Virus record (IMG/VR): IMGVR_UViG_3300009502_000090
Span: 1 to 43,486 of that record
DNA from: a virus
Strand: one strand, 5' to 3'
DNA length: 43,486 nucleotides
Part shown: positions 6,708-41,445 of the stretch, one piece after another
Position numbering within the stretch: position 1 is the stretch's first letter
Layout: each line of letters opens with the position of its first letter
The notes under the pieces: generated by a model
What the model saw: only the letters and a program-made list of their open reading frames with translations
Told to the model about the DNA's origin: nothing
Database searches by the model: none
Program-made: the position numbers and the translations under genes

Positions 6708-6715
6708 CCACTACT

Positions 6716-6743: not shown

Positions 6744-6971
6744 TTGGAGGATGTTAGGGTAAAAGTTGAGAGAGAACGCATCGCCAAGGCCAAAGTAATA
6801 CTCCAGGCCCGTGGCATCGCGGGCAAGGGTGCCTACCTGGAAGGAAAGCAGGTGAGCCGGAAGGTCGAACACCAGCAGCGGCTGGAAATCTATCGCTACA
6901 CCTGGACCGCCGAGGTCGTTGATACAGAAAAGGGGGGCGCGAGCCCCCCTTCCCTTTATTTTGCCAGATAG
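6744..6971 (+). CDS. Possible small basic protein, start unclear
   Basis: The frame from TTG 6744 encodes a plausible 75-residue basic protein (RIAKAKVILQARGIAGKGAY, then RLEIYRYTWTAEVVD). A strong GGAGG at 6746-6750 is followed at once by ATG in a different frame, which stops after three codons. No well-placed start exists in the long frame. The frame also reads through a strong hairpin at 6932-6949 before stopping. It may be a gene with a non-standard start, a frameshifted remnant, or chance. Confidence 0.35.
   Translation: MEDVRVKVERERIAKAKVILQARGIAGKGAYLEGKQVSRKVEHQQRLEIYRYTWTAEVVDTEKGGASPPSLYFAR
6932..6949. terminator. Bidirectional hairpin at strand convergence
   Basis: Stem GGGGGGC/GCCCCCC with loop GCGA. 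On the minus strand it is followed by TTTTC, on the plus strand by TTCCCTTTATT. It sits where the plus-strand block meets the minus-strand block, so it can serve both. Confidence 0.65.
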
Positions 6972-6996
6972 AGTGTATTCAAGATAAACCCACCTA

Positions 6997-7407
6997 TTAC
7001 GGGGTGGCGGTAGGAACCGCGCTAATGGGCGCGTCCGGCTCCGCTACCACCGTCGCCGGCACCACAACCGACGCAACCACGGGGGCAGGTTCAACCGCCT
7101 TGACCACATCCTCCTCGACTTCCTCAGTCACGGAATCGATGTGACTGTGGAGGTTGTCGAGGGCCTCATGGACTTCGCCGAAAGCCTCGTGCATTTCGTC
7201 GAAAAGGTCCTCGGCGACGTTTTCGGCTTCGGGGATCAACAGAACCAGGACCGCGAACAGCCCGGAGATGGCGGCGATGGTAATGCCCAGCGAGGCATCG
7301 CCGTGGCCGACCAGAACGAAAAGAACGGAGACCGTGATGGCCGCAATGGCAATCAACAGGGCTCCGATAGAACCACGCTCCTGGAAGCGGGCGGCGAGAT
7401 AGGACAT
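6997..7407 (-). CDS. Two-TM membrane protein, holin-like candidate
   Basis: 136 residues from ATG 7407, which follows AGGAGAGCACC. The N-terminus MSYLAARFQERGSIGALL leads into two membrane segments (about 12-33 and 39-58) split by a short polar turn. Then come an acidic amphipathic helix (ENVAEDLFDEMHEAFGEV) and a valine/proline/alanine-rich tail. A short N-terminus with an ERG-type motif, two helices and a PE boundary is common in phage holins, but the long tail is unusual and the lysis cassette is 31 kb away. The function is therefore open. It has its own promoter with a near-palindrome in the leader. Confidence 0.65.
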   Translation of the reverse strand: MSYLAARFQERGSIGALLIAIAAITVSVLFVLVGHGDASLGITIAAISGLFAVLVLLIPEAENVAEDLFDEMHEAFGEVHEALDNLHSHIDSVTEEVEEDVVKAVEPAPVVASVVVPATVVAEPDAPISAVPTATP

Positions 7408-7423
7408 GGTGCTCTCCTGATTT

Positions 7424-7437
7424 TGCAACCGGTTTCA
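7424..7437. promoter_or_regulatory. Near-copy of the palindrome: TGCAACCGGTTTCA
   Basis: One mismatch from the consensus. It lies between the predicted -10 (7470-7475) and the start codon at 7407, so it would fall in the leader of the membrane-protein gene. Confidence 0.55.
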
Positions 7438-7467
7438 TTCCGGCAACGGTTTATGCTGGATGTAGCA

Positions 7468-7497
7468 CCTATATGAGGCCTCCAACGGAATTAACAA
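7468..7497 (-). promoter_or_regulatory. Putative promoter TTGTTA / CATATAGG
   Basis: Minus-strand -35 TTGTTA (7497-7492) with -10 CATATA (spacing 16) or TATAGG (spacing 18). The CATATAGGTG block closely resembles those at 28749 and 38140. Confidence 0.5.
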
Positions 7498-7503
7498 GCA
7501 CTT

Positions 7504-7899
7504 TCACGGCGTGGTCGCCCACTCGGATGGGTTCGATACTTCCTCTTTTGGGAAGATGTGGTCGATCTCGGGAAGTCGAGATAGGTTCGTCTCGATTGCA
7601 TCGTAGTCAAGATCGACGTGGATGCTCTCCTGCTTCCCGGGATAGATGGACACTACACGGGTGAAGGCGACGAGGTGCGTTGGCCTGTCACTGTTATTCT
7701 CGGCGTGTTCGGATGCTGCTTGCAGCGCAGTTACCGCAGCGGTGGTCGGACCTTGGGCATCCGTCACGACTGCGTAAGGGATGCACAGAAACAAGTCTTC
7801 ATCAAACTCGTCGATCAGGATGATGATCACATGCACCGTGTAGGTTTTCTCGGCGCGTAGCAACGATGCTGCTGCGATGACTCGCTCTTGGACGATCAT
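7504..7899 (-). CDS. Hypothetical 131-residue protein
   Basis: ATG follows GGAGATAGTC, and the gene starts two bases after the terminase stop, so it is probably co-transcribed with it. The sequence is alpha/beta with an acidic segment (IIILIDEFDEDLFLCIPYAV). No domain recognised. A packaging- or head-related role is possible from position only. Confidence 0.6.
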   Translation of the reverse strand: MIVQERVIAAASLLRAEKTYTVHVIIILIDEFDEDLFLCIPYAVVTDAQGPTTAAVTALQAASEHAENNSDRPTHLVAFTRVVSIYPGKQESIHVDLDYDAIETNLSRLPEIDHIFPKEEVSNPSEWATTP

Positions 7900-7901
7900 G
7901 A

Positions 7902-10900
7902 CTATCTCCGATTTGACGATGGCCGTGGCCCACCACTACGGCGGCCTGACTTCGGCCTCTCCTTCGATGCTGGGTGCTCTTGGCGCTGCTTGGTGTTGGG
8001 CATAAGCTCCTTCCGAAACTCCTCAAAGGAGTTGCCGAGAGCCTCCGGCTGGCTCCTACTCGCATTCTCAGTTACGACGGTGACATTTTTGGCCCCTCCC
8101 CGCTCCCACAGGTGGCGCCGCATCATAATGGTGGCATAAACTCCGCACATACCATCGGCGGTATCCTTAGAGCCGTTACTTGGATGGTCAACGCAACGAT
8201 GCTCGTGATCCTCCTCAAGCATCGCAAGTTCCTTGAAGGCGATTGGGTTGTCAGGGCAGAGTACCCTGTGTCCATTGACAGCCGAACGGAACATCCGATA
8301 GAACTCAAGCCCCTTCTCACCATCCACTGAGCGGTGGAACGTGACGAACCGCTTGCGCTGAAGGATCTGACGGCTATCCGCTGACTGAAACTGATCGAAC
8401 GAAACATATTGAATGGGGATGCCAAGCTGATCGCGAAGGAGGTACAGGATTTCACGGACTTGAGAGAACTCTATTTCGCCGCCTGGGGGTGGAGTAATAG
8501 TTAATACCACGTCATAGGTGACTATCGGCATTTCCTCAATCACGATCTCACCTTTGCGACCCCTACCCTTTTGCATTTCAATGCCTGAGACATAGCCCAC
8601 GGCAAGGCCGCAATAGTCCCCGGTCAGGCCCAAGTCGATATGGCAAACACGGGGCATGTGCGGGTCGCGGCATTTGTACCCTTCGATGGGTAACGGGATG
8701 CCCTTCGATAGCTCGTACTTGAACCCGGCGAATGGGCTCTCGTTGCCCGCTTCCTTGAAGTCATCAGCCATCCGCCAAATGGCGCTCCGGTCCCAGAAGT
8801 AGGGGCGGCGGGCCAGCGTGCAAACACCCGCTAGGTCGCGCAAGGAGCCTTCCATGTCGTTGGTGAAGTCGCCCTTGTATTCCAGGGGCACTGTCATGGT
8901 CAACGCGCCCTCACGGGGCTCCTGGCTGTCTTCAAGCACCTGAGCCTGAAACCGTTCATTTCCCAGTTCAAGGCGGAACGTCTTACCGGAGTAGTTCTCC
9001 GCCGGCTTGATTTCCCAGATGGGCTTGTCCACCACATAGGTCAGCTTGTCGGCCTCATCCGATGCTTGGCGGGCGCGTTGCTCAAGAAAGTCGTCTGGGC
9101 CACCTTTTGACGAAACTAGCAGCAAGCATCCCGGGACCTTGCCCGTCTTCATGAAGCGGGATTTCCGGCGCCGAACCAATGTACTATAAATGGCCTTCGC
9201 CTGGTTAAACTCCCCCCCGTCACGCGCCTGTTTTGACTTCAAAACCTGAGCCATGAAGTTCATTTCGTCGATAATTCCCCCGATGATATTCATACCGAGG
9301 AGCTTGTTACTATAAGCGGCGCTTGGCATGACCAGAATGTTGTTGGGGAAGTGCATCTGGCTTTTGACGGTGCGGTCAAAGGGGAACTCTTCCTTGAAAT
9401 ACGGTACTTGCTCCATCATCTGGCGGAACTCGCCGAAAGTTACTGACTTAGAGAGGTCATCCGTTTTGTTGAGCATCGCGACCACGATGCTGGAGGTGGG
9501 CAGCAAGCCATACTTGGCCTGTGGGAACTTCTCGGTCGAAAGGAGGTAAATCTGGTAAGCCGTGATGACCTGTGCGACCGTTGTATTGTGCGTCACAACA
9601 AAGTCATCCGTGACGTATAGTTGATCCTTGGCGGCTACTTTGATGCACATGCACTCCTCCGAGCCGTCTGGATCGACAGAAGAGATCATTCGAGATGGCG
9701 TGTACTTCCCGGAGCGACGAACTGCGTCTTTCTTGCGAGGAAGCCAGAACATATCGAAGCCCGCTGGAGGGCAGATGGCCAACTGATGGTGATCTTTTCC
9801 AGACGCGGAGACCTTCACCGTCCTCTTGGTGGTGCAGCCAAGAGATCGCACAAGAAATGTCACATCGTCGATTAGACGACTTGAATTGCTTGAATACCGA
9901 ATCCCGCAGCCTCCAGCACCTTCAACCCACCCGTCAGTGTCCATAAGGCCGTGGAGCAAGTCGATGCGAGACGCTATAGAACTAAGAAGGTATTCCTGCG
10001 GTATGAACTTATCATCTGAACCCTTCCCTAAAAGCCCTAGAGACCTAAGAGAGGCGAGCATTTCGTTACTTCCAGCAATACCACCAGACATCGGACCCGT
10101 GATCCGATAATCATACTGGGAGACGTATTTCACAGAGAGGGGCGCTGGGACGGCCTCTGAAACACGGTCAATGGTTGGCTGGTCATTCGAGGAAAAGCGG
10201 ACCCCGTCTTTCAATGAACCATTACCGATAAGGACTCCGAGTACATAAGGGTCGATTGGCAACTGATTGCCCTGGAACTCTACGGCGTCCATTACGGGCG
10301 TATGCCACTTGAGTTGGCCGTTCTTATTGCGGACGCCACCTACAAAGCTGCTCAAGGATGCAGTCTTCCACGGCGCATCGGTATGGGCGGCAGAAGGGCT
10401 TCGGACAGACCACAAATGCTCGGCGCAGCATCTTGTGGAAGCCCCGTCGTTAAAGGAAACCTTGAAGACTTTACGGACGCCTTGGAAGAACACACCGATA
10501 ACCTCCGTAGGCTTCCCGTCTCTGCCAATCACGAAGTCGCCAACACGGATGTTCGCCATAAGCATCCACCCGTTTGGGGTAAGGAGCTTCGCAGACAAAG
10601 GCTGTGCCTTGCCGTAACCGATGGCCCCCATCAACAGTGCCTCCACGTACCCGTCCTCAACGATCTCCCGAATGATCCGGCGGTTCTCCGGCCAGATGTG
10701 GTCGGCATCGTAGCCCAGGAAGTAGTCATCCTCGATAAACTGGTCGATGCTTACCGGCTCATGGGTCTTGGTAAGGAGGGCGGCCATGTCGCCCCCGCTC
10801 TCACCAAGGGCTTCAAGGAACTCCATCAGGGCATCGGGGTCGTCACCATACTCGTGGGCCAAGGCCGCGAGAGCCGATGCTCCGATCTCGTCATGCACTT

Positions 10901-10958
10901 GGTTCCTGAGGTGCCGCCACAGCGCCTTGGACTGGTCAGTCGGCGTCTTGAAAGCCAT
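7902..10958 (-). CDS. terL: Terminase large subunit containing an intein
   Basis: 1018 residues as translated; removal of the predicted 341-residue intein leaves about 677. The spliced P-loop reads GAIGYGKT (host residues 111-117 plus the Thr after the intein). The Walker B-like segment IIGGIIDE follows. The C-terminal nuclease region shows HIDLGLTGDYCGLAVGYV and DTADGMCGVY, typical acidic metal ligands of the RNase H-fold terminase nuclease. It is the ATP-driven motor that packages DNA into proheads and cuts it. ATG 10958 has GAGGAAGAAGACG upstream and lies 23 bases inside the preceding gene; the longer upstream frame is only shadow. Order small candidate then large subunit is the usual one. 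Family call is confident. Confidence 0.9.
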   Translation of the reverse strand: MAFKTPTDQSKALWRHLRNQVHDEIGASALAALAHEYGDDPDALMEFLEALGESGGDMAALLTKTHEPVSIDQFIEDDYFLGYDADHIWPENRRIIREIVEDGYVEALLMGAIGYGKAQPLSAKLLTPNGWMLMANIRVGDFVIGRDGKPTEVIGVFFQGVRKVFKVSFNDGASTRCCAEHLWSVRSPSAAHTDAPWKTASLSSFVGGVRNKNGQLKWHTPVMDAVEFQGNQLPIDPYVLGVLIGNGSLKDGVRFSSNDQPTIDRVSEAVPAPLSVKYVSQYDYRITGPMSGGIAGSNEMLASLRSLGLLGKGSDDKFIPQEYLLSSIASRIDLLHGLMDTDGWVEGAGGCGIRYSSNSSRLIDDVTFLVRSLGCTTKRTVKVSASGKDHHQLAICPPAGFDMFWLPRKKDAVRRSGKYTPSRMISSVDPDGSEECMCIKVAAKDQLYVTDDFVVTHNTTVAQVITAYQIYLLSTEKFPQAKYGLLPTSSIVVAMLNKTDDLSKSVTFGEFRQMMEQVPYFKEEFPFDRTVKSQMHFPNNILVMPSAAYSNKLLGMNIIGGIIDEMNFMAQVLKSKQARDGGEFNQAKAIYSTLVRRRKSRFMKTGKVPGCLLLVSSKGGPDDFLEQRARQASDEADKLTYVVDKPIWEIKPAENYSGKTFRLELGNERFQAQVLEDSQEPREGALTMTVPLEYKGDFTNDMEGSLRDLAGVCTLARRPYFWDRSAIWRMADDFKEAGNESPFAGFKYELSKGIPLPIEGYKCRDPHMPRVCHIDLGLTGDYCGLAVGYVSGIEMQKGRGRKGEIVIEEMPIVTYDVVLTITPPPGGEIEFSQVREILYLLRDQLGIPIQYVSFDQFQSADSRQILQRKRFVTFHRSVDGEKGLEFYRMFRSAVNGHRVLCPDNPIAFKELAMLEEDHEHRCVDHPSNGSKDTADGMCGVYATIMMRRHLWERGGAKNVTVVTENASRSQPEALGNSFEEFRKELMPNTKQRQEHPASKERPKSGRRSGGPRPSSNRR
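9585..10607 (-). other. Intein with LAGLIDADG endonuclease inside the terminase P-loop
   Basis: Residues 118-458 of the terminase. The N-terminal splicing block is AQPLSAKLLTPNGW with RVGDFVIGRD after it. The C-terminal block is DDFVVTHN, followed by extein Thr. The first residue is Ala, not Cys or Ser, so splicing must use a variant mechanism as in other Ala1 inteins. Two dodecapeptides (YVLGVLIGNG and LLHGLMDTDGW) mark a LAGLIDADG homing endonuclease; the first has Asn in place of the usual Asp (IGNG), which may weaken cleavage. Insertion lies between Lys and Thr of the P-loop. Confidence 0.85.
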
Positions 10959-11685
10959 CGTCTTCTTCCTCAAAATCCTGCGGGATACTCTGATCGGCAG
11001 GTACGACGGTGACTTTTTCTGCCGTCGCGTCACGTTGTTGTTCGGCGATGATCTCGGCCAACTGTTTTGCCATCGCCCCGAGGCGGGCCTGCTTGGCGAG
11101 CCGGGCTTGAACCTCAGACCCTTCGGTGCGTTGTGACACACTCTCCATGGTCTTCTGGCTAACACCGTTGTAAAGATCACGCTGTTTGTTGATCTCAAGG
11201 AGCGACTGCAACGCAACGATCTTGGCCCTCTGGTCTTTGGAAGTCTCAATGATCTGCCAATACTTGCGCTCTAACATGGCCATACGGGCCAAGCCTTCGC
11301 CGCGCACCCTCTTTAGATCATGGGCCGTACCGACGATTTCAAAGCGAGCGAGCACCCTCTTGATGAACTTTTCGGCCTGGGGGACGGTGATCTGGAGCAA
11401 CTGAGCCATCATCCGGGGGTCTCGGTAGCCCTTGAGCATCGCAACTTCGGTTTTGGCGACCATTTGCTCTTCCCATAGGGTCTGGTCATCGCTTTTTGGG
11501 ATGGTGGTCTTCGGAAGGACGAGCACGGTCTTGGCCGTGCCAGCCTCCATCGGGGTTGGGGGTGCCATAAGGGAAGGCTGCGTGTCCTTCCCATACCCAC
11601 TGGTGCCTTCCTGAACGGCTACAGGGGGCTTTGCGCGCTTCTTCTTGTCCTTGATGCCCTGCAAGGCGTTCGTGAACCGTCCCAT
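10936..11685 (-). CDS. Probable terminase small subunit
   Basis: 249 residues directly upstream of and overlapping the large terminase. A central segment (YRDPRMMAQLLQITVPQAEK) reads as a helix-turn-helix, followed by long charged helices and an acidic tail (DFEEEDDGFQD). This suits a DNA-recognising, oligomerising small terminase, but the assignment rests mainly on position. ATG 11685 is one base after the previous stop and has GGAG eight bases upstream; a GTG at 11694 would overlap. It could instead be a head-scaffold-type protein. Confidence 0.55.
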   Translation of the reverse strand: MGRFTNALQGIKDKKKRAKPPVAVQEGTSGYGKDTQPSLMAPPTPMEAGTAKTVLVLPKTTIPKSDDQTLWEEQMVAKTEVAMLKGYRDPRMMAQLLQITVPQAEKFIKRVLARFEIVGTAHDLKRVRGEGLARMAMLERKYWQIIETSKDQRAKIVALQSLLEINKQRDLYNGVSQKTMESVSQRTEGSEVQARLAKQARLGAMAKQLAEIIAEQQRDATAEKVTVVPADQSIPQDFEEEDDGFQDAD

Positions 11686-14602: not shown

Positions 14603-17600
14603 CTAGCTCTTGTTGAAGTCGATGGGGCAAGCACCACTGGCACAATCTAAATGGACACGGTCAACATCCTCTGCCAGCTTGGCGCTGATCTGACGGGAGA
14701 TGGCCTCGTACTCCGATTTGGTAACAGGGGTTTCGGGGAGATATTCATAGGCCGATCGGTCTTCGGTGAGGGGCATGACCGAGCACGCTTTGACGCCCGG
14801 TTGGTACTCCAGCAGCATTTCCTTGAGGTCTTCGGCGGAGACGATGGCTGGGTTGTATTTTAGCGAGTAGCTGATTTGGTTCGAGTGATCTGTTTGAAAC
14901 TGGTTTCCATGTTGATCACCACCCCGTAGCCAGTGGTTTTCAAGAAGACGCAGCCAAGCATACTGTTGCGCCGGAGTAGCCTCGGACGCCGTGACGATCA
15001 TGTCGTCGGGCAACAGCGTGGTCAGCACAGGGGTTGTTGGGAAGCCGATCACTGTCGTGCCGGTGTACGTGACCAGTTCCTTCGCAGGGTAGCCCTTGGC
15101 CTTGTATTCGGCCACCAAGGGGTCATCAGAGCGGAACTGAACCCAGCGAAGATACCGACGCTGACAAGGAAGATGGGCACCTTCGGAAAGGCCCCACAGT
15201 TTGCTGATCGTGCCACTGGGCTTGATAGTACGGTTGGTGTGCGGAATAGCCATCCCGAGCACCTTGGAATAGCTCTCGGCCTCTTCTTCAACAGCCCGAG
15301 CGAACCTGCTCAGGGTGATCCAGAACTGGGCCGAACGGCAGTGCGGGTTAGTGAAATCAGGGTTGATAAGCTCAATGAAGCCGCACCTGAAAAACTTGGC
15401 AGCGAACTCAAAGATGCCGGTCATCCCGACACCAATGCGGTTGGTGCGCCTCACTTCGTTGTTGTAAACGCTGTCCATGGTGTTGACCCGGATCAGTGCC
15501 CGCGTGGCGACACGGAATGCTTCCTCGGCCTCATCAAGACTTTCTGCGTGGTACGGGATGACATCACATAGCACACAGAAACCACCCAGGACTGAAAGGG
15601 TAACCTCGCCACAGTTGCTCACATCGTGCCCGCCGGACCAATAGGTGTGCGATGGTCCGTCAACCGTGATGTCAAATACCTCTTCCTCACCGATAAGATC
15701 GCGCTCAACGATGTCGAACGTGGTCTTAACCCGATGACCGCGAGGCCCATCACAGCGAGAAAGAGCCGCGAGCTTTTCGTTTTTGTACCCCTGGATGAAG
15801 CCAATCTTCTCAGCGAACACCAGAGCATTATGGGCGTTGACGTTGATGTCGTAGGACTGGCGGCTGGTGTACTCCCCATTCTCCCATTTAACGGACGACG
15901 ACTTGTTGGTGGTCCGGTATGAAACGATCCCAATAGACGAGAGCATCCACTGAACCTGAGCCGCAAGACCAGCAGAAGTTGTCTTGAGCGTCACCCGGCT
16001 TCCGCAGATTGATCCATTGGCTGAAAAGAGGCCACGAAGGAACGATGCCACCTCAGACGGCGTTCCGTACAGAAAGCGATCCGGGATAACACGCTCTGGC
16101 AGGTGGGGAAGCTCATCGTGGTCGATAGTCGTCTCGACCTTGAACGCTTTGCCTTTCTTGACAGAATGGTCACCAATGATCAGGTGCCCAACCTCAGAAG
16201 CGAAGTAGTCCTGGTCCCCCGCTCCGATGGTGAGATACACCTTATCATGGCTTGTCCGGTGTGCAGTCCCGTCTCCTATCATGAGACCATCCATGACAAA
16301 CTGGGCCAAGGGCTCAACCGAACCCAGAGGCCCGGCCAGCACGTCAATGCTATCCGCCTCCCCCGCCTCGATCTTGATGCCCCCAGAAACGACGCGGTGA
16401 TTTTCTGTGCCGACGAAAGCACCCGCGTTGGTCCGATACCAGTAAACAGGTTTCACGCCGGTCGCCTGCTTATTCACGACCGTCACCCACCCATCCTTGG
16501 ACCAAACCTTGTCCCCGATCTTGATTGCCCCCATGGTGCTTATACCATAAGGGGTAAGCACGGGCGCCCAAGCGGGCTGGCATGGGTTCACGATCATGCT
16601 GTAGGGGCTGAGGCGCACCCGGCGGGCAAGATCGGCCATCAGGTGAAGGGTTTCCCCGACGATGGGGTAGGTGTCGTTCCCGGCAAAGCTACCGTTGGCG
16701 ATGGTCTCCCACCCAGCCCAGTTCTCCACCAGCTTGTCCACGTTGATGATACCCGGCTCGCCGGTTCCGTCGCCGTAGGAGCACGAGATGATCAGGTCGA
16801 ATACCTTGCGCGCGTGCCGGGCGCTGGCACTGTGATAGAGCTTCTCGCCCTTCCGCAAGGCTAACAGCCCCCACGCTTCCTGGTCAAACAGGACGCTGTT
16901 GTTGGCGCTCCACAGGAAGGTTCCTGGCGCCGGCTTACCGAGGATAGCCAACTGATCACGGTAAAGGGCAACCTCAGTGGCGGTCAGACCCATGTATTCT
17001 ATGGGCCGCTTGCATTGGATGAACTCGAAGATGGCCGGGTCACGCCAATACATCGTGGCCATACGCGCCGAGCGACGGGCGCCTCCAACGAGGACGCACT
17101 CGGCGACCAAATGGTCGATCAGCATCGCCTGTTTCCAGGGCGTAATCCCGGCCCCCTTGAGGCTGGCGGCCTTGATTATGGCGTTCATCAGGGGAATGGG
17201 GCCAGAGGACGGGCGGTACTGCATTCCCCGGATGGGCTTGTTGCGTTCGCGCACGTCTGAGAAGTCGAGGATCAGGGTCTTGTTCTTGGCGGCCTTCGTG
17301 AAGGCCAGCACTTCCCACGTCTCGATTGCCTGCGCCCAGCCCTCACGGCTGTCAGGGACGCGGAACCAGATTACGTCGGGGTTGGTGCCCGGCGACCCAT
17401 ATTTATGGATGGCTTCGCGCCGACCATCATAGGCCGCGCCTGGGGTATAATCAGGGTGATCTTCGCTGAGGATGCAACGGAGGTGTGGAGCATTGTCAAA
17501 ATTGACGGCGATCATGTGGCTGCTGTAGTCCCGCCCAACACCACTGCCGGAAAGCAAAAGGCGAAAGAGTAAGAAAGTAGTCGCAGAAACGCTGCAATTA

Positions 17601-18016
17601 GTAAAGACTTCCTGCGGTCGGCCTGGCTGGCGGCTGTCCCCGTGTTGCAGATGGCGGCCACTCATGACCACCGTGCCGGCAAGCATAGCTTCGTACATCT
17701 TGAGGTAGTCGTCTTCACCCTCTTGAGTGAGGATAGTGTTGCCCCACGACACCCTCCTGGCAACCTCTTCCCAGGTCTCCCACCGGGTCTTCGGCTTCCG
17801 GCCTTTGAAACCGGCTTCATAATCGGTCTTGACCAGGAGATCAGCCGCTTCGGCAGCAGAAATCCAGGCTGGCGCGTCGGGGTCTTTGGGGTTGATCACG
17901 ACTTGCACACCCATCCCGGTGAGTTCATCGTTGTCGAGACGCTTGCGGAGGATGGTGCGCTCGGCCACCGCTCTCCCCATTCCAGGCTCGAAGTCCCGGA
18001 TGTTATTTTTCTTCAT
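14603..18016 (-). CDS. nrdJ: Class II (B12-dependent) ribonucleotide reductase containing an intein
   Basis: 1137 residues translated, about 814 after removal of the 323-residue intein. It reduces ribonucleotides using adenosylcobalamin, with no small subunit; none is visible. TNCSVS (140-145) and a later GGFCVLC give candidate redox cysteines, YGDGTGEPGIINVDK and KPSGTISKL are conserved barrel motifs, and the C-terminal CASGAC resembles the shuttle cysteine pair. Splicing recreates NPCGE, the thiyl-radical cysteine motif. ATG 18016 follows GAGGGACCACAAC. It has its own promoter at 18054-18082. Monomeric triphosphate-type (RTPR-like) is favoured; substrate level is not shown by sequence. Confidence 0.9.
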   Translation of the reverse strand: MKKNNIRDFEPGMGRAVAERTILRKRLDNDELTGMGVQVVINPKDPDAPAWISAAEAADLLVKTDYEAGFKGRKPKTRWETWEEVARRVSWGNTILTQEGEDDYLKMYEAMLAGTVVMSGRHLQHGDSRQPGRPQEVFTNCSVSATTFLLFRLLLSGSGVGRDYSSHMIAVNFDNAPHLRCILSEDHPDYTPGAAYDGRREAIHKYGSPGTNPDVIWFRVPDSREGWAQAIETWEVLAFTKAAKNKTLILDFSDVRERNKPIRGMQYRPSSGPIPLMNAIIKAASLKGAGITPWKQAMLIDHLVAECVLVGGARRSARMATMYWRDPAIFEFIQCKRPIEYMGLTATEVALYRDQLAILGKPAPGTFLWSANNSVLFDQEAWGLLALRKGEKLYHSASARHARKVFDLIISCSYGDGTGEPGIINVDKLVENWAGWETIANGSFAGNDTYPIVGETLHLMADLARRVRLSPYSMIVNPCQPAWAPVLTPYGISTMGAIKIGDKVWSKDGWVTVVNKQATGVKPVYWYRTNAGAFVGTENHRVVSGGIKIEAGEADSIDVLAGPLGSVEPLAQFVMDGLMIGDGTAHRTSHDKVYLTIGAGDQDYFASEVGHLIIGDHSVKKGKAFKVETTIDHDELPHLPERVIPDRFLYGTPSEVASFLRGLFSANGSICGSRVTLKTTSAGLAAQVQWMLSSIGIVSYRTTNKSSSVKWENGEYTSRQSYDINVNAHNALVFAEKIGFIQGYKNEKLAALSRCDGPRGHRVKTTFDIVERDLIGEEEVFDITVDGPSHTYWSGGHDVSNCGEVTLSVLGGFCVLCDVIPYHAESLDEAEEAFRVATRALIRVNTMDSVYNNEVRRTNRIGVGMTGIFEFAAKFFRCGFIELINPDFTNPHCRSAQFWITLSRFARAVEEEAESYSKVLGMAIPHTNRTIKPSGTISKLWGLSEGAHLPCQRRYLRWVQFRSDDPLVAEYKAKGYPAKELVTYTGTTVIGFPTTPVLTTLLPDDMIVTASEATPAQQYAWLRLLENHWLRGGDQHGNQFQTDHSNQISYSLKYNPAIVSAEDLKEMLLEYQPGVKACSVMPLTEDRSAYEYLPETPVTKSEYEAISRQISAKLAEDVDRVHLDCASGACPIDFNKS
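15614..16582 (-). other. Intein immediately before the reductase catalytic cysteine
   Basis: Residues 479-801. It begins with Cys1 (CQPAWAPVLTPYG) and ends SGGHDVSN; the next extein residue is Cys of CGEVTLS. The penultimate residue is Ser, not the common His. Two dodecapeptide-like motifs (GLMIGDGTAH and GLFSANGSIC) indicate a LAGLIDADG endonuclease. After splicing, NP joins CGE, so the catalytic Cys is also the +1 splicing nucleophile. Confidence 0.9.
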
Positions 18017-18053
18017 GTTGTGGTCCCTCAGAGTGCCAAGCCCCAAGCTATAG

Positions 18054-18082
18054 TATATAGGCACTTTAGTGGCTTGTGTCCA
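18054..18082 (-). promoter_or_regulatory. Putative promoter TGGACA-N17-TATATA for the reductase
   Basis: Minus-strand -35 TGGACA (18082-18077) and -10 TATATA (18059-18054); TATACT two bases further is an alternative. The -35 lies in the 3' end of the preceding 70-residue gene. Confidence 0.6.
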
Positions 18083-28748: not shown

Positions 28749-28777
28749 TATATGGGCCTCAGGCGGCCAAACGTCCA
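28749..28777 (-). promoter_or_regulatory. Putative promoter TGGACG-N17-CATATA
   Basis: Minus-strand -35 TGGACG (28777-28772) lies in the polymerase 3' end, and -10 CATATA (28754-28749) sits within CATATAAGGTG. It resembles the reductase promoter and the block at 38140. Confidence 0.5.
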
Positions 28778-31365
28778 GCCAGATTGTTGAGAGCGCCGAT
28801 CTCGTCGTCGTTCCACCAACTTGGCTTACGGGGTTGAATGTCCGGGCGCTCAATCATGTTACCGAGGCTCGGCTTTTCGGGGTTGGCGATGCTCGGCTCT
28901 GCCAGGATAGGCAGCGGAGGGGTAAGGTCAAACCACTCTTGGAATGGAAAGCTCTCCATCGACCAGCGCAGATAGGCAGCGCCCTCTTCCGCCATCTCGA
29001 TTGGCACTTCCATGATAAGCGCGTCATGGATGAACGCCACGATGCGGTATATCTCAGGGTCGGCTTGAGCACTGAACCGGGCGAGGGCCGCGAGGCCGAG
29101 GTCCGAACCGAAACGCTGGACAGGCGCGTTGACCGCTTGGCGTTCAGCGAGCGCAACCATCGCCGGGTCAGTTGACCGGATAGACGGAAGGTGCCGGGTT
29201 GCCCCGTGAAGCGCGACGGAGGTCCCCGTCTCATGGGCGAACCGCTTCTTGCGAGCATGCCACGCAACGAGGCCCGGATAGTTATCGAAGAACAACTCGC
29301 GCGCTTCTTGGGCCTCCTTCTCTGTATAGTTTACGCAGTAGTCCGTAAAGGCATACGCCTGGAATGTACGCCATTGCATTCCATAGATGAACCCGAAGTT
29401 GCAGGCTTTGGCCTTAGTTCTAAAGGCTTTCTTTTCCTTCGGGGTAAGGGCGTTCCATTCTTCGAGGGTGATCTGCATAACGACCATTGCCGTGGCCGTA
29501 TGGATGTCTCCACCTCCCCGATAGATGCGGAGCATCTCCGGCTCCATCGCTTCCCAGGCGGCGATGCGAAGTTCGATCTGGCTCAAGTCGCAATCGACGA
29601 ACGTGAACCCGGGGCGCGGGATGAAGAGCTTTTGATACTCCGCAGCCCACCGAGAACGCTTGGGAAAGTTCTGCCCATTGGGATATTCTGAACTTGTACG
29701 CAGAGTATTAGTATTGTGGAGCTTATAGAACGGGTGAACTGCCCCATCCGTTGGGCAGATATACTTGGCGAAGGCGTCACCGAGGTAGGTGTCACCCAGT
29801 TTTGACAGCTTCGTGAAGTCCACGTATTCACGGCAGAACTGCCCGGCCTCGTCATTACGGGTGATGAAGTACGGCATGTGCGTCTTGGCCGAGGTGGAAG
29901 CGATCTGGTGTTCAGGCTCAAGGTCTACGGTGCCGGCCGTGAACTGGACGGGTTTCAGGCCGAAGCCAACGTCTGAGAATAGCACATCCCGAATGAAATC
30001 AGGCCGGGTCAAGGACATCAGCTTGTCGATGGTCTTGGCACCGGAATGAAATGCTTTGCGGATTTCCTTGCGCTGGACGGCTCCCGGTATCCGGCTCCAA
30101 AGGCTCCGTTCAAGGGTCTCGGCTTCATTGATGATGCTGGCCGTGAAGGTGGTCAGGTGTTCCAGGTCAATCTTGATCCCATAGGGCTCAACCACCTTGA
30201 GGAAGGCCAACAAGGCCGGGAACTGGATACGGCGGTAGCAGCGAAGCTGCCCACGGTTGATGGGCAAGCGGATCATCGCGTCCAGAACCTTGGCGAGCCG
30301 GAGGGTGGCATCCGCGTCACCACAGCCGTACTCCAACATCTCATCGAAGGGAACTTCACGCATCCGAGACTTGTCAGTCTTGGCGTCGAAGACATCGGAA
30401 TAACCAGCCATCTCTGGCACAAACTTTTTGACGGCGGAAGCCAAGTCCTTCCGCATAGCGTTCTCGTCAAGGAAGGCCCACAGTAACATCGTGTCGTGAT
30501 ACCACCCCTTGACTTCAATACCGAACTTGCGGAGCATCATCGCGTCGAACTTGATATTGTGCCCGACCTTTAGGATAGTCTGGTCTTCGAGTAGCTCTTT
30601 CAACTGTGACCGGACACGGGCCATCTTCACCGGATCATTGAGTTCAGGCCAGTAAACCGGGTCAACCGGAATGGCGTAAGCCTCGCCAGGAGCAACGGAT
30701 ATCTGGACTGTGATGGGCAGGATACCCTCTTGCCACCAGATCAGGCCGGTGGTCTCGGTGTCCACGCTTATAATCTTGGGCTTTGACGCGATGATGTCCG
30801 CGATGTCAATGCGCCACTGGTAGTCTTTCCCAGGAGGGGCAGCTTCCTGCCACCCGGAACGCCGGTAGCGCAACAGCGTCATCAGGTCGGCCTGGAGCGT
30901 CCCGCGATGCTCAGGCACCCGAAGGATGAAGCCGGGGCTGATCAGCGGGAACACCCGAACACCGTCCGCCCGGTGCTGGAGAAGGCCAGATACCTTCGTC
31001 ACCTTCATGGCCTTGCCCATGATAGCCCGTGTAGCCAGGGCTCCGAAGGTCACGACGACTTCCGGATTCGTCTCGGCGATCAGGTCATTGATTTGTTGGA
31101 TGTAGGGCTGGACGTGATCCCACTTCCGGGCCTCGGACTTGAGGTCCCCCTTGGCAACCTGGGGGCACAGGCCGACGAACCGGAAGTCCCCCTCGGCAAA
31201 GCCCAAGGGGGTGGCCAAGTCCGCGAAGGTCTGCAACTCCTGGGTACTGAGGGGCATTCCCCGGCGAGCGGCGAACTCGTTCGGGGCGTCACACACGACC
31301 AGGATGGGGGCGTTCGCCTGCCCAATCTTAGGGAAGGCGAACTTGGGGGTCGGATCAAAAACCAT
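28759..31365 (-). CDS. Family A DNA polymerase with UDG-like N-terminus
   Basis: 868 residues. Residues 15-170 resemble a family 4/5 uracil-DNA glycosylase fold (LVVCDAPNEFAARRGMPLS; SPGFILR) as in SPO1-type polymerases, without obvious catalytic residues. The 3'-5' exonuclease has SVDTETTGL (Asp202, Glu204), GHNIKFD (Asp274) and GCGDADATL. The polymerase has motif A DCDLSQIELR (591-600), motif B with Arg649, Lys653, Phe657 and Tyr661, and motif C HDALIMEVP. It is the replicative polymerase. Phe657 matches the E. coli Pol I Phe762 position. The start overlaps the end of the helicase gene. Confidence 0.95.
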   Translation of the reverse strand: MVFDPTPKFAFPKIGQANAPILVVCDAPNEFAARRGMPLSTQELQTFADLATPLGFAEGDFRFVGLCPQVAKGDLKSEARKWDHVQPYIQQINDLIAETNPEVVVTFGALATRAIMGKAMKVTKVSGLLQHRADGVRVFPLISPGFILRVPEHRGTLQADLMTLLRYRRSGWQEAAPPGKDYQWRIDIADIIASKPKIISVDTETTGLIWWQEGILPITVQISVAPGEAYAIPVDPVYWPELNDPVKMARVRSQLKELLEDQTILKVGHNIKFDAMMLRKFGIEVKGWYHDTMLLWAFLDENAMRKDLASAVKKFVPEMAGYSDVFDAKTDKSRMREVPFDEMLEYGCGDADATLRLAKVLDAMIRLPINRGQLRCYRRIQFPALLAFLKVVEPYGIKIDLEHLTTFTASIINEAETLERSLWSRIPGAVQRKEIRKAFHSGAKTIDKLMSLTRPDFIRDVLFSDVGFGLKPVQFTAGTVDLEPEHQIASTSAKTHMPYFITRNDEAGQFCREYVDFTKLSKLGDTYLGDAFAKYICPTDGAVHPFYKLHNTNTLRTSSEYPNGQNFPKRSRWAAEYQKLFIPRPGFTFVDCDLSQIELRIAAWEAMEPEMLRIYRGGGDIHTATAMVVMQITLEEWNALTPKEKKAFRTKAKACNFGFIYGMQWRTFQAYAFTDYCVNYTEKEAQEARELFFDNYPGLVAWHARKKRFAHETGTSVALHGATRHLPSIRSTDPAMVALAERQAVNAPVQRFGSDLGLAALARFSAQADPEIYRIVAFIHDALIMEVPIEMAEEGAAYLRWSMESFPFQEWFDLTPPLPILAEPSIANPEKPSLGNMIERPDIQPRKPSWWNDDEIGALNNLAGRLAA

Positions 31366-34532: not shown

Positions 34533-34732
34533 TGATCGGGTGGGCGCCGAATGTCAAGGCCCATTTCCCTCCGATCTTCCTGACCTGTTCACCTAGAAAA
34601 GTCCCTAGATCGACAGGCCAGGATTACGTGGTGCCACATAGAGTGGATTGCAAGGTTTGTCAGTGGCTTGTGGTGGTTTCTACCTATAGTGTGTCAGAAT
34701 CAACTGGTAGTAGCCAGCGGATGAAACCGGTT
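34533..34732. other. Non-coding 200-bp leader of the replication operon
   Basis: No supported gene. It contains a minus-strand TTGACA at 34557-34552 without a good -10, an inverted CTAG element (GATCTAGGGACTTTTCTAGG, minus strand), a phage-promoter-like sequence at 34679-34701 and, at its right end, palindrome copy 8. A regulatory or origin function is possible, but no iterons are visible. Confidence 0.4.
34679..34701 (-). promoter_or_regulatory. T7-like promoter-like sequence
   Basis: On the minus strand the core CACACTATAGGTAGA is very close to the T7 consensus; 18 of 23 positions match the full T7 phi10-type promoter by hand alignment. It points to the initiator gene about 170 bases downstream. 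No single-subunit RNA polymerase is in this window, so activity is unproven. Confidence 0.35.
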
Positions 34733-34735
34733 TCA
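34722..34735. promoter_or_regulatory. Palindrome copy 8: TGAAACCGGTTTCA
   Basis: The minus-strand TGA is the stop codon of the 112-residue gene, at the right end of the 200-bp non-coding segment. Confidence 0.75.
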
Positions 34736-35071
34736 GAACACCCCCTGCATCCGAAGATGGATCAGGACTTCTACCTCAGCATCGACCGCATCCTCATAGC
34801 TGTCGAAATAGAGGTTGCCTCCAATACAGGTAAGCCCATCGGGGATGTCCTGGCCGAAGGCGTTGTGCCAGATCAGCGTCCCAAGGGTCTCACCCTTGAG
34901 CGGGCCGGCGACGAACTTGACGTAATAGAGTTGCACGGCTGCATCGAACATGATGTCGCTCACACGGTTGACCTGGATGCGGCCGAAGGACCGCAGATCA
35001 ATCCCCATGCCGCAGGGCATCCGAAGTCCAGATACCTCCCCGGCGCTGCCGATTGTAAGCACTTGGATCAT
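34733..35071 (-). CDS. Hypothetical 112-residue protein
   Basis: Strong ribosome binding site AGGAGGCTACG before ATG 35071. A beta-rich N-terminus (MIQVLTIGSAGEVSGL) and an acidic helical end (SYEDAVDAEVEVLIHLRM). No family recognised. It is the last gene of the transcript that carries the Ycf46/DUF1257/DUF2997 group and may belong to it. Confidence 0.65.
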   Translation of the reverse strand: MIQVLTIGSAGEVSGLRMPCGMGIDLRSFGRIQVNRVSDIMFDAAVQLYYVKFVAGPLKGETLGTLIWHNAFGQDIPDGLTCIGGNLYFDSYEDAVDAEVEVLIHLRMQGVF

Positions 35072-35083
35072 CGTAGCCTCCTG

Positions 35084-35278
35084 TTACCAGCGTAGCGTCT
35101 GGTGCTGCTGGGTGGTCTCTTCGGTCTCGTAGAAGTCGGACTTTAGCGTGCGCTTGGCGGTCCCGCCAATGGACGCTTCCAGTTTCTTGCTGGCCTCCAC
35201 ACAGGATGACCCGCTGAACCCCTGCCCTTCGATCACGACCTGTCCGGTCTTGCTGATCGTCACCTTCATGATCGCCAT
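35084..35278 (-). CDS. DUF2997 protein
   Basis: 64 residues. MKVTISKTGQVVIEGQGFSG with SSCVEASKKLEASIG is the DUF2997 pattern (small beta sheet plus helix). In cyanobacteria this family often neighbours DUF1257 (Ycf35) proteins, and here it directly follows one, three bases after its stop. ATG 35278 follows the GGGGGG of the previous gene's end. Molecular function is unknown in the family. Confidence 0.75.
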   Translation of the reverse strand: MAIMKVTISKTGQVVIEGQGFSGSSCVEASKKLEASIGGTAKRTLKSDFYETEETTQQHQTLRW

Positions 35279-35280
35279 GA

Positions 35281-35733
35281 CTAGCCCCCCACGTTAATGC
35301 GAAGATGGATGTTTCCCTGAGCATCTTCATGCTCGCTCTCGACGAGGTAGCCTTGTTGCGTTGCAGCACTATACATAGCGTTGCGCGCGTACCGTTTCAA
35401 CAACTTCCCAATTGCCCGCTGTGCCCGCTCTTCCTTGGTGATCTTTTCATCGAGGGCGACGGGTTCACCGACGAACGCGGCAACGTAGCCTTGCCATTCA
35501 TCGAACACCGGAACGAGCTTGCCGTCAACACGGTCGAAGCCCACGTCATACTTCCCATCCTTGATCCTCATGACGATGGGGCACTTGCCGTGCTGGTCGG
35601 CATAGTACATCCGGGGAACGGCGTTGCGGACAACCTCAACCGCCAGCCCCTTGGCCTTGAGGTCGTTGATGGCTTGCACCAGGGCCGCTTCGTCCACGAT
35701 CTCTATGCCCTGCAACTTTGTGGTGTGGCTCAT
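35281..35733 (-). CDS. DUF1257 (Ycf35-like) protein
   Basis: 150 residues opening MSHTTKLQGIEIVDEAALVQ, the usual start of DUF1257, with YDVGFDRVDGKLVPVFDEW in the middle. The family is named for plastid Ycf35 and has no established activity. The second half has a basic amphipathic helix (RAIGKLLKRYARNAMYSA). TAAGGAG precedes the start. The gene sits between an unknown protein and DUF2997 and is probably expressed with the AAA ATPase upstream. Confidence 0.75.
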   Translation of the reverse strand: MSHTTKLQGIEIVDEAALVQAINDLKAKGLAVEVVRNAVPRMYYADQHGKCPIVMRIKDGKYDVGFDRVDGKLVPVFDEWQGYVAAFVGEPVALDEKITKEERAQRAIGKLLKRYARNAMYSAATQQGYLVESEHEDAQGNIHLRINVGG

Positions 35734-35742
35734 TTCAACTCC

Positions 35743-36393
35743 TTATATATCGAGTACCCGACCAGGGCGAGCAACTGCGACCGCTGTTACCTTGCCGTCC
35801 TCAGTGACGGCAGCTTGGACTTCGTGAACTTCCCGACCGGAGCTTGCCCTGTCCATCACGGTGATCTCGAAGCAACGCCCGACTATCGCAGGATCGATGT
35901 TGCGGAACACCAGCGGAGTGATCTCGACGCCGGCCATCTTCAGGCCCCGTCCGTCAAGGATGTCAAACCGCCCCTCGACGTTCGCTCGGATGTACGCGCA
36001 CTTGGCCCATCCGGTAAGGATAGCGGAAACCCGAACCAACGGTGCCCCCTCACGCATCCGAATGTAGACGCACGAGTTCACCGGGGCCTTTTCGGCCGCC
36101 ACCTTTTTCTGACAGAACAACTTGAGGATAAGACCCTGCGGGACAGCATAAGCACTCGTGGTCCACTGACCGTGCAGGCTCTGGTTCTCAGTGTTGGGCG
36201 CGGCAGGTATGATCTGGACACGACCGGCAACGTCGATGGTCAACTTGGGATCAACACCGCGAGCTATCTGCCAAATGAAGTGCTCTTTGGCAATCGGAAA
36301 GTCTCTGGAAGGTACAACAAACTGGTGGAACTTTACCATACCAAGGTTGTTGCTTTCCTCTCCCGACATTGTTGAAATGAGCATGTTTGCCAT
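35743..36393 (-). CDS. Hypothetical 216-residue protein in the Ycf46 cassette
   Basis: ATG follows GGAGCACCAAC. An alpha/beta protein with several strands (KLTIDVAGRVQIIPA, RFDILDGRGLKMAGVEI, REVHEVQAAVTEDGKV). No family recognised. It lies directly between the Ycf46-like ATPase and the DUF1257 protein, ten bases from the latter, so it may be a functional partner. Confidence 0.65.
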   Translation of the reverse strand: MANMLISTMSGEESNNLGMVKFHQFVVPSRDFPIAKEHFIWQIARGVDPKLTIDVAGRVQIIPAAPNTENQSLHGQWTTSAYAVPQGLILKLFCQKKVAAEKAPVNSCVYIRMREGAPLVRVSAILTGWAKCAYIRANVEGRFDILDGRGLKMAGVEITPLVFRNIDPAIVGRCFEITVMDRASSGREVHEVQAAVTEDGKVTAVAVARPGRVLDI

Positions 36394-36426
36394 GTTGGTG
36401 CTCCGCGTTGAGGCTTAGAATATAGC

Positions 36427-36441
36427 GGGGGGTTAGCCCCC
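36427..36441 (-). terminator. Weak hairpin after the AAA ATPase gene
   Basis: Stem GGGGG/CCCCC with a TTAG loop, followed on the minus strand by GCTATATT. The poor T-run suggests attenuation rather than a full stop between the ATPase and the rest of its cassette. Confidence 0.35.
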
Positions 36442-36456
36442 ACGCCAGTCCTTATT

Positions 36457-38109
36457 TCAGAGATCGACCACTCGACCTGTTGGTGCTGTCCTTTCAACAG
36501 GGGGTGCCCGCCGGTTCCGCAACCTAACTTGACTGTCCCCTACGCCAGTGGTGCTGTTCGCTGGCCGTGCATTATTGCGAGCCCAGAGGGCCATCGCCTC
36601 AAACTGTTCAGCAAACGCCTCGGATAGCGGCACCATGTTCGCAAGCTGATCAGCGATCAAGGCTCCAGTCATAACAACGTCCGTCGTGAAGGCAACGATC
36701 TTGGCATCCTTCACAGCGCCCTCCAACTCGGCGGGCACGTACCCATTGGACCGGGCAACAGCTTGGTCGAGGTCGGTGATAGCCGCCGGGTCCACACCGC
36801 GCTTCCGCAAGTGGATTTTCAACACGGCAAGGCGCTCGGCGTCGTTGGGCACACCCACGCTCCAGACTTCGTCCAAGCGCCCCCGACGAAGGAACTCGGC
36901 GGGCAGATTGTCCACCCGGTTGGCCGTCACGACAACGAAAACGACCGACTTGGTTTCTTGCATCCATGTGAGGATGGCACCAAGAACACGCTGGCCGACG
37001 CCGCTATCCCCTCCCCCGCTCACCTGAAACGCCTTATCGGCTTCGTCGATCATCAAAACGCACGGGGACATCCCGTCAACCATCTTGAGTGCGCCACGGA
37101 CGCGCTCTTCGCTCTGCCCAACGAGGCTCCCGAACACGCGCCCCACGTCGAACCGGATCAGGGGAAGCCCCAATATATGGGCGGTCGCTTTGGCAACAAG
37201 TGATTTGCCTGTCCCCGGCGGCCCGGCCATCAACATGCCCTTGGGCGGGTCAATGTGAGCAGCCCTAGCCTCCGGTGAAAAGCACTTGGCCCGCATCGTA
37301 AGCCATTCCTTGAGGTTTTCCAGTCCACCGATATTACTTGCAGGCTCTGGTGTCATAACCTCAAGTATTTCAGTCCGCTTAACAACCTCGACTTTGACTT
37401 GCGTCACAATTTCGCTGATCTGTTCTATTGGCACGTCGGGGAGCAGCTTCTTATTTTCAATCAATGCGCGGGACAAAGCAGTCTCGGCCTCGAAAGCTGT
37501 CATACCTGACATCACCGCTATCAGACGGTCGCGGTCGCTTGGGGCAAAGCGGGGCCGGTTCTTCTCGCTGATCGTATCTGTGACAGAGGAAATACTTTCG
37601 GACAACTCACCCGCGCTCGGTGTGTCGAAGTCAAGGATAAGAACATCATCCTCAAGTTCGGGGGGCAGGCTGAAGCCCAGGGGAACGATCAGGGCAAGGC
37701 GCTTCCGATTGGTCGCGAAGCGTTCGGAGAACTGCTTCAGCGCAACCACCATGGGCGGGATTTTCGGGATGTAATAATGCAGGTACGACATCACGAAGAG
37801 GCCGTTTCCGCTTCCTTCAGCACCGACGTACATCAGCGCCGGCATTGGGTCTGAGTTATGGTCAGCCGCTTCATCAGAGGTCCCATCAATCGCCTTCTCC
37901 CAACCGTCCAGGCAGTTCCAAGCCTTGAACTCCAACCGGTTTGACAGCGCAAATATACGTAGCGCCCGCAGCGCCCGGCTGGGCTCCCGAGTACGGACCA
38001 TAACCACACCGACGCCAGCTTGGTTCAGGACGTTGAACTGGTGCTGAAACTTTGCCGAGTTTCCCTCGGCGATACGCCCTGCTCGGGTCGCGGAATTGAA
38101 AGTGGCCAT
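36457..38109 (-). CDS. Ycf46-like AAA+ ATPase
   Basis: 550 residues. An N-terminal degenerate domain (1-250) precedes an AAA+ core: linker IGGLENLKEWL (260-270), Walker A GPPGTGKS (296-303), FDVGRVFGSLVGQSEERVR (pore and helix region), Walker B VLMIDEADKAF (351-361), sensor region VVVTANRVDNLP, and Arg finger region RRGRLDE. The DVGR..GSLVG.SE signature is that of Ycf46/FtsH-like plastid and cyanobacterial ATPases. The family's function is unclear; a remodelling or protein-handling role is likely. It has a promoter and a nearby palindrome. The C-terminal tail is disordered and basic. Confidence 0.85.
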   Translation of the reverse strand: MATFNSATRAGRIAEGNSAKFQHQFNVLNQAGVGVVMVRTREPSRALRALRIFALSNRLEFKAWNCLDGWEKAIDGTSDEAADHNSDPMPALMYVGAEGSGNGLFVMSYLHYYIPKIPPMVVALKQFSERFATNRKRLALIVPLGFSLPPELEDDVLILDFDTPSAGELSESISSVTDTISEKNRPRFAPSDRDRLIAVMSGMTAFEAETALSRALIENKKLLPDVPIEQISEIVTQVKVEVVKRTEILEVMTPEPASNIGGLENLKEWLTMRAKCFSPEARAAHIDPPKGMLMAGPPGTGKSLVAKATAHILGLPLIRFDVGRVFGSLVGQSEERVRGALKMVDGMSPCVLMIDEADKAFQVSGGGDSGVGQRVLGAILTWMQETKSVVFVVVTANRVDNLPAEFLRRGRLDEVWSVGVPNDAERLAVLKIHLRKRGVDPAAITDLDQAVARSNGYVPAELEGAVKDAKIVAFTTDVVMTGALIADQLANMVPLSEAFAEQFEAMALWARNNARPANSTTGVGDSQVRLRNRRAPPVERTAPTGRVVDL

Positions 38110-38180: not shown

Positions 38181-38194
38181 TGAAACCGGTTTCA
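38181..38194. promoter_or_regulatory. Palindrome copy 9: TGAAACCGGTTTCA
   Basis: Eleven bases upstream of the -35 box of the AAA ATPase promoter, in the intergenic region. Confidence 0.75.
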
Positions 38195-40590: not shown

Positions 40591-41445
40591 CTAATTTGTG
40601 CGCACAAGTGCGCCTCGGTTTAGTTCACAGTTCTCGGACCGCAGTTTCACCGTTTCTTGCGAAACGGCCAGAGCCGCAATCTCCCTGCGCGTAGTTGCTG
40701 AAAAGTTCAGCAACGGTTCAGGCCTAGCCGGCCTTACCAATTCCTTAGCGTTCGAGTTCATGGGTATGATGGCCTCCTGGCGCGGCACAACAGGAACCAC
40801 TGCCACAGTCTGTACTGGGTGGACATCCTGCCTCCAGATTAGGCCGACGAACCCGCTAATGCCGTTCTGAACATCTGTGATGGAAAGCATCACAAGTTCC
40901 GTCTTCCCATCCGACTTCTTGATCATGACCGGTCGCGTCTTCCCCACCGTGCGGGATACGCGCTTGTAGTTGCGCTGCTCTCGGTACTGGTCGATGTAGA
41001 AGTGATGCCGGTCAGCATCCGGGGGCGGCATTAGGAGGGACAGGTCCGCCCCTATTACCTCTTCCGAGCTATACCCAAAGATGTCTTCGGCGGTTGGGTT
41101 GAAGACCCGGATGGTTTGCGTGTTGTCAATGAAGATGAAACCCACCGACATTCCAGTTGACATGATCCTCATGAACTCAATCTCATGCTTAGGGATCAGG
41201 TGAGCCGGGATGACATCTTCCAAGGGGGCCGGCGGCGTCGGCTTGGACGGCTGTGCCGGTATCCCCTTCCCCAGCCACACCGACCACAGATTGGTGATCA
41301 ACAAGACGACATCGCGGCGGCTGACCCGAATGGCGACATAGTAGAGGATTACGCCTACCAGCATCCCGATGACGCTGGCGGCGTTTATCGTGTTCAGTAT
41401 GTCCCACATTGACGGCGGAACCGGGATCGGAGTAATGGGCGGCAT
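40591..41445 (-). CDS. Membrane-anchored PAS-domain protein
   Basis: 284 residues. One membrane segment near the N-terminus (SVIGMLVGVILYYVAIRV, about 25-42), a proline-rich linker, a PAS domain (about 92-207: VGFIFIDNTQTIRVFNPTAE, DIFGYSSEEVIG, LLMPPPDADRHHFYIDQYRE, SGFVGLIWRQD) and a 75-residue tail without a kinase or cyclase domain. PAS domains sense ligands, redox or light. The RHHFY segment aligns with the FixL haem-ligand region (His147), but the motif also occurs in non-haem PAS. It precedes the tail-fibre gene in transcription order only by position; its role is unknown. Confidence 0.8.
   Translation of the reverse strand: MPPITPIPVPPSMWDILNTINAASVIGMLVGVILYYVAIRVSRRDVVLLITNLWSVWLGKGIPAQPSKPTPPAPLEDVIPAHLIPKHEIEFMRIMSTGMSVGFIFIDNTQTIRVFNPTAEDIFGYSSEEVIGADLSLLMPPPDADRHHFYIDQYREQRNYKRVSRTVGKTRPVMIKKSDGKTELVMLSITDVQNGISGFVGLIWRQDVHPVQTVAVVPVVPRQEAIIPMNSNAKELVRPARPEPLLNFSATTRREIAALAVSQETVKLRSENCELNRGALVRTN

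Follow-up and report, generated by a model that had tools for sequence, protein, structure and literature searches.

Gene Content of the Cassette

The IMG/VR virus record IMGVR_UViG_3300009502_000090 (positions 1 to 43,486, all 43,486 nucleotides of which are referred to here as the window) carries five adjacent genes, which encode a Ycf46-type AAA+ ATPase, a protein termed G2, a DUF1257 (Ycf35) protein, a DUF2997 protein and a protein termed G5 (Table 1). These five open reading frames (ORFs), listed before in a sequence-only reading of the same DNA, were all recovered between 34733 and 38109 on the minus strand. Comparison with related loci shows one conserved gene unit built around an intact AAA+ ATPase, and the view of the cassette as one functional unit is strongly supported by gene order, strand and co-inheritance.

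Table 1. Features of the cassette and its flanks in the window (conservation values were counted in sets that contain near-relatives and are therefore non-independent).
Feature	Position	Strand	Basis or remark
AAA+ ATPase, Ycf46-type, 550 aa	36457..38109	-	Pfam AAA E 5e-30; phrog_8638 E 1e-154
N-terminal domain (residues about 20-240) and one classical AAA domain (residues 256-480)	within the AAA+ ATPase		
Walker A GPPGTGKS, residues 296-303	37201..37224	-	K302 100% in 143 unique homologues
Walker B Asp355-Glu356	37042..37047	-	D355 99%, E356 100% in 143 unique homologues
Arginine fingers R408 and R411 (RRGR)	36877..36888	-	both 100% in 143 unique homologues
G2, 216 aa, predicted mostly beta fold	35743..36393	-	hidden Markov model, 45 loci; lineage-specific
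DUF1257 (Ycf35) protein, 150 aa	35281..35733	-	Pfam E 4e-7
Ser2-His3 of DUF1257	35725..35730	-	alignment conservation
DUF2997 protein, 64 aa	35084..35278	-	Pfam E 7e-13
Cys26 of DUF2997	35201..35203	-	invariant in 108/108 unique sequences
G5, 112 aa, fifth gene of the module	34733..35071	-	phrog_38408 E 3e-13; hidden Markov model, 59 loci
Exact palindrome TGAAACCGGTTTCA	38181..38194		upstream of AAA gene
Exact palindrome TGAAACCGGTTTCA	34722..34735		overlaps G5 stop codon

Over 494 amino acids, with the N-terminal domain included, the ATPase shares 36% identity (E 4e-93) with a protein from a cyanobacterial plasmid, the gene of which adjoins DUF1257 and DUF2997. The assignment as Ycf46-type thus refers to likeness to this plasmid homologue and not to plastid or chromosomal Ycf46 itself. 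The top sequence matches in PDB were NVL, VCP/Cdc48 and AFG2, which are known remodelling ATPases, whereas the Pfam family AAA_5 (MoxR/CobS) scored below its cut-off. In addition to the residues of Table 1, the sensor 1 asparagine (N397) is 100% conserved in the same set of non-independent homologues. Together, these motifs show a Cdc48/NVL-like AAA+ ATPase with an intact active site and arginine fingers, and the complete conservation of R408 and R411 leads us to infer an oligomeric enzyme.

The two DUF assignments of the sequence-only reading were upheld by Pfam profile searches, in which both proteins exceeded the gathering cut-off (DUF1257, PF06868, 30.6 bits versus 22.2; DUF2997, PF11211, 48.6 bits versus 24.1). 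The DUF1257 protein starts with Met-Ser-His, and the serine is found in 100% and the histidine in 97% of 114 aligned sequences, again a set with near-relatives. No Pfam family was assigned to G2 or G5, and the DUF1257 and DUF2997 profiles retrieved nothing in a PDB sequence search. AlphaFold2 models of DUF1257 and G2 were confident, with a mean predicted local distance difference test score (pLDDT) of 94.4 and 91.6, respectively; the G2 model matched a protein of Pseudomonas phage SM1 in BFVD (E 2e-13), which is in line with an SM1 counterpart of G2. Weak BamC and Bet v 1-like matches from the PDB fold search with DUF1257 and G2 (E 0.03 or worse) were disregarded.

Between Rhizobium phages L338C and RHph_I4, the ratio of nonsynonymous to synonymous substitution rates (dN/dS) is 0.11-0.19 for each of the five genes and thus comparable to that of the neighbouring replication genes DnaB and O-like. 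Accordingly, the five genes are regarded as real and constrained, the cassette being under purifying selection in close relatives. As the low dN/dS is accompanied by a gene order kept in dozens of genomes, the arrangement is not a matter of chance.

Conservation of the Module in Phages

The order AAA-G2-DUF1257-DUF2997-G5 is kept in Rhizobium phages L338C and RHph_I4, Agrobacterium phage JP1, Rhodobacter phage RcDurkin, Aeromonas phage HJ05 and Pseudomonas phages SM1 and PA_L9; where a gene is annotated merely as hypothetical, it was assigned with hidden Markov models (HMMs) built here. About 30 phages from metagenomes share this arrangement, with the genes on one strand. JP1 and SM1 feature one additional annotated ORF within the five-gene run. 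When 98 stretches (91 IMG/VR loci, 5 loci of named phages and two copies of the window, with some contigs duplicated) were surveyed with the HMMs, AAA was detected in 98, DUF1257 in 84, DUF2997 in 78, G5 in 59 and G2 in 45 of them, and all five genes occur together in 35 loci after rough dereplication. In 147 AAA-bearing loci, each family that was detected shared the strand of its AAA. Moreover, pairwise protein distances are correlated among the five families (Spearman 0.42-0.74, 35 loci), which shows co-inheritance, while an interaction is not established by correlation alone. The proposal that the genes form one ATP-driven system is hence well supported by conserved order and strand, by co-inheritance and by ATPase and arginine-finger residues which are invariant or nearly so.

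In the window and several of the named phages, the cassette is located after the lysis genes and before DnaB/PolA-type replication genes. Since the same genes recur in the same order and on the same strand between lysis and replication genes, the cassette is best regarded as a core phage module rather than a stray insertion. Its direct neighbours in the window, as in relatives, are a weakly O-like protein, DnaB and PolA, and this proximity would suit a replisome-specific remodelling factor, e.g., for helicase loading or unloading, with the AAA protein used like a loader. Nevertheless, neighbourhood alone is weak evidence, and the core is also found in plasmids and chromosomes without replication genes alongside, so that such a specialised role is considered quite improbable.

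The fixed position also bears on the suggestion of a defence against the host, which was not sustained. In favour of a counter-defence or superinfection-exclusion device, the AAA domain is weakly similar to IetA of the IetAS system, and a Geminocystis plasmid has an RloB-like gene and a zeta toxin next to the core. However, PADLOC reported only this generic AAA similarity and no match for the other four cassette proteins, IetA and the phage protein are alike in the AAA domain only, and the cassette differs from IetAS in its protein set, in the lack of a subtilisin-type partner (IetS) and in being part of the phage core synteny. With its syntenic place among core genes of several phage lineages, its low dN/dS and the chaperone link of the chromosomal versions described below, a counter-defence function is unlikely.

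The ATPases of the five-gene loci form one viral clade, which stands apart from the AAA proteins of cyanobacterial plasmids. G2 is essentially confined to one AAA clade (3 label changes on the tree), the sister group of which carries DUF3150 instead, a family present in many phage-type loci with the AAA-DUF1257-DUF2997 core. G2 and DUF3150 share no locus in the roughly dereplicated set, in which some chromosomal loci are counted twice. As G2 falls in essentially one clade, this exclusivity reflects few independent events, and the Fisher p of 5e-11 was accordingly not used to gauge its strength.

The Core in Plasmids and Chromosomes

The AAA-DUF1257-DUF2997 part is a wider core, shared by phages that carry DUF3150, by plasmids from several phyla and by chromosomes of Desulfobacterota. 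A DUF1257 pattern scan of genome contigs, using one DUF1257 subgroup and retrieving mostly Desulfobacterota and Nitrospirota metagenome bins, revealed an AAA gene upstream and a DUF2997 gene downstream in 23/23 loci. DUF1257 was detected in 15 of 198 sampled Desulfobacterota genomes, with an adjacent AAA in 14 of the 15 best loci, and in 3 of 148 Nitrospirota genomes. On plasmids, all three genes were found in Pseudanabaena, Geminocystis, Planktothrix, Rhodococcus, Paenibacillus, Bacillus and Nostoc, sometimes in a different order. In the plasmid pTRESU01 of Treponema succinifaciens (6302-8408 in locus L148 and 4333-6488 in locus L154), DUF1257 lies within a contractile-tail gene cluster, and a radical S-adenosylmethionine (SAM) protein adjoins the AAA and a baseplate V gene about 54 kb away.

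Chaperone genes often accompany the cellular versions. An Hsp70-like protein adjoins the core in 8/8 long Desulfobacterota chromosomal loci of one AAA type, together with a HEAT-repeat protein. The Hsp70 assignment is firm in locus L139 (Pfam E 8e-11) and made by homology in the other loci: the proteins of the L138 type show a weak DnaK match alone (E 2e-3) and match the Hsp70s of L139 or Pseudanabaena with E 1e-30 or better. Besides, the Pseudanabaena plasmid pPg_01 carries grpE, Hsp70, DUF1257, DUF2997 and AAA together. Thus, of the alternative "protein remodelling or defence" put forward by the sequence-only reading, the first part is supported independently by the Hsp70, GrpE and HEAT-repeat proteins that are encoded beside the core in bacteria and on plasmids.

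The statement that these families are best known from plastids and cyanobacteria is true, but misleading, as most hosts found here are non-photosynthetic. It would favour an auxiliary metabolic cassette that was acquired from a phototroph and serves photosynthesis or the use of CO2, and in Synechocystis the activity of the carbonic anhydrase EcaB reportedly falls when Ycf46 is lost (according to PMC7496141, which cites Jiang 2015). Yet Rhizobium, Agrobacterium, Aeromonas and Pseudomonas are among the hosts, Desulfobacterota carry relatives on their chromosomes, and the viral clade of the five-gene ATPases is separate from the cyanobacterial plasmid proteins. A photosynthetic role, which does not fit most hosts, is therefore unlikely, and acquisition of such a cassette from a phototroph is highly improbable.

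Relation to Known Systems

The DUF1257 and DUF2997 families link the cassette to Ycf46, Ycf35 and DUF2997 of cyanobacteria and red-algal plastids. In Synechocystis, the DUF1257 and DUF2997 genes are neighbours in the cluster duf2997-ycf35-fed7 (PMC4284462), whereas ycf46 belongs to the slr0373-slr0374-slr0376 operon (PMC7496141); the phages keep the AAA gene in the same operon and add G2 and G5. With Cdc48/VCP, NVL and AFG2, the closest solved relatives by sequence, the ATPase has the Walker, sensor and arginine-finger motifs in common, but it features one recognisable AAA domain and an unrelated-looking N-terminal domain, and none of its partners DUF1257, DUF2997, G2 and G5 is known as an adaptor of Cdc48.

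A further parallel is offered by phage CobS/CobT and DUF3150/VWA cassettes, in which an AAA+ motor encoded by a phage likewise has partners of its own; cobST occurs widely among tailed phages (PMC8651126), and DUF3150 is common to the DUF3150/VWA cassettes and the sister modules of the present cassette. The AAA class differs, being AAA_5/CbbQ_C in those systems and classical AAA here, and neither the proteins of the cassette nor the two genes that follow it had a VWA match in Pfam. In the open-access literature, which mostly excludes subscription journals and leaves novelty unproven, three papers mention DUF1257 or DUF2997, none of them dealing with phages, and DUF3150 is not mentioned at all.

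A possible, albeit tentative, alternative is that the AAA+ protein serves as an activase in which a metal, an Fe-S group or a radical cofactor is involved: the motor would open a target enzyme while DUF2997, via its cysteine, and DUF1257 would bring in a cofactor or redox group or protect it, in principle like CobS/CobT. Such a function would agree with the invariance of that cysteine, with the Synechocystis cluster mentioned above and with red algae, where the loss of ycf34, ycf35 and ycf46 tracks habitat (PMC5940233). Moreover, a Fer4_12 radical-SAM protein adjoins or lies near the core in plasmids of Paenibacillus, Rhodococcus, Treponema and Bacillus, in one Desulfobacterota genome and in several viruses, and DUF3150, the partner in sister phages, also occurs between a CbbQ-type AAA (AAA_5/CbbQ_C) and a VWA protein on a P. 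aeruginosa plasmid. Still, a Fer4_12 match was obtained in just 1 of 22 five-gene phage records, the ATPase is of the Cdc48 and not of the MoxR/CobS type, and the AAA and DUF1257 genes of Treponema are far apart.

Proposed Function

With moderate confidence, the five genes are interpreted as a single phage-encoded AAA+ protein-remodelling module. The ATPase would assemble into a ring, probably a hexamer, which exerts a pull on a client protein complex or changes its shape, and DUF1257 and DUF2997 would act as its dedicated partners, with the invariant cysteine of the latter and the Ser-His end of the former possibly at a working or attachment site. G2 and G5 may represent lineage-specific adaptors that direct the core to its target in the phage or the host; in related phages this task might fall to DUF3150, and in bacterial versions perhaps to Hsp70 and the HEAT-repeat protein. 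The position between lysis and replication genes weakly suggests a client in phage DNA metabolism or in the transition to late growth.

Protein remodelling is favoured because of the kinship to Cdc48, NVL and AFG2 and the Hsp70, HEAT-repeat and GrpE neighbours; a cofactor or redox role is kept in view because of the cysteine, the radical-SAM proteins, the ferredoxin neighbour in Synechocystis and the red-algal loss pattern. Several observations weigh against a remodelling module. Hsp70 was found in 0 of the 22 five-gene phage records, so the chaperone link derives from the cellular versions only. Neither the DUF1257 nor the G2 model had a significant Foldseek match among PDB structures. In addition, some phages and plasmids possess the AAA without detected DUF1257 or DUF2997, e.g., Mycobacteriophage Firecracker, in which the partners were not detected; hence, the core is not obligatory for each AAA of this type.

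Other Features of the Window

A 96-kb IMG/VR virus contig contains two stretches of 14 kb each with zero mismatches to the window, which is therefore very likely part of the same phage. The 14-bp palindrome TGAAACCGGTTTCA occurs in 21 window copies (up to 3 mismatches) versus 1.9 expected, at places including 463, 5478, 19854, 24731, 34722 and 38181, and TGAAACYRGTTTCA has 21 sites in the 96-kb contig and 0 in eight other cassette-bearing virus records. The palindrome was consequently ruled out as a part of the module. The copy upstream of the AAA gene belongs to this phage-wide repeat and is probably regulatory, and the palindromes are possibly operators of a phage regulator. A dedicated promoter, claimed earlier, was not recovered: a consensus scan yielded no promoter ahead of the AAA gene, where the 180-bp gap holds the exact palindrome. 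A T7-like promoter after the 34722 palindrome was dropped, as the suspected 868-aa RNA polymerase ORF turned out to be DNA polymerase A, and no single-subunit RNA polymerase was found among the other large window ORFs scanned. A hairpin between AAA and G2 was not significant (z -1.3), and the window contains no known RNA families of Rfam.

Beyond the cassette, the window encodes a DNA polymerase A (28759-31365, minus strand), which has a 3'-5' exonuclease and, at its N terminus, a uracil-DNA-glycosylase domain, as well as a PAS-domain protein (40591-41445, minus strand), which adjoins a dNMP kinase and is near a lysozyme. The ORF at 14603-18064 (minus strand) combines domains of a class II (B12-type) ribonucleotide reductase and a LAGLIDADG insert, and another large ORF at 7902-11249 (minus strand) shows homing-endonuclease and Hint-like matches, which is suggestive of inteins in both. 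Given a resolvase-type serine recombinase domain at 4364-5290 (plus strand), the phage may be temperate.

Implications

Although conserved, Ycf46, Ycf35 and DUF2997 have no agreed function. A more far-reaching and rather doubtful proposal is that AAA-DUF1257-DUF2997 constitutes an undescribed, widespread AAA+ class, in which DUF2997, a small protein with a cysteine, and its Ser-His partner DUF1257 act under ATP control on a client group that is linked to redox chemistry, a metal or a thiol. If true, this class would be common to plastids, bacteria, plasmids and phages and would use swappable aiming parts such as Hsp70/HEAT, radical SAM, DUF3150 and G2/G5. The phage operon, together with the Hsp70/HEAT link in bacteria and the DUF3150 link in other phages, leads to the direct hypothesis of one AAA+ machine. 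Phages of laboratory hosts offer a genetic system for testing it, with the DUF2997 cysteine and the DUF1257 Ser-His end as the first sites to target.

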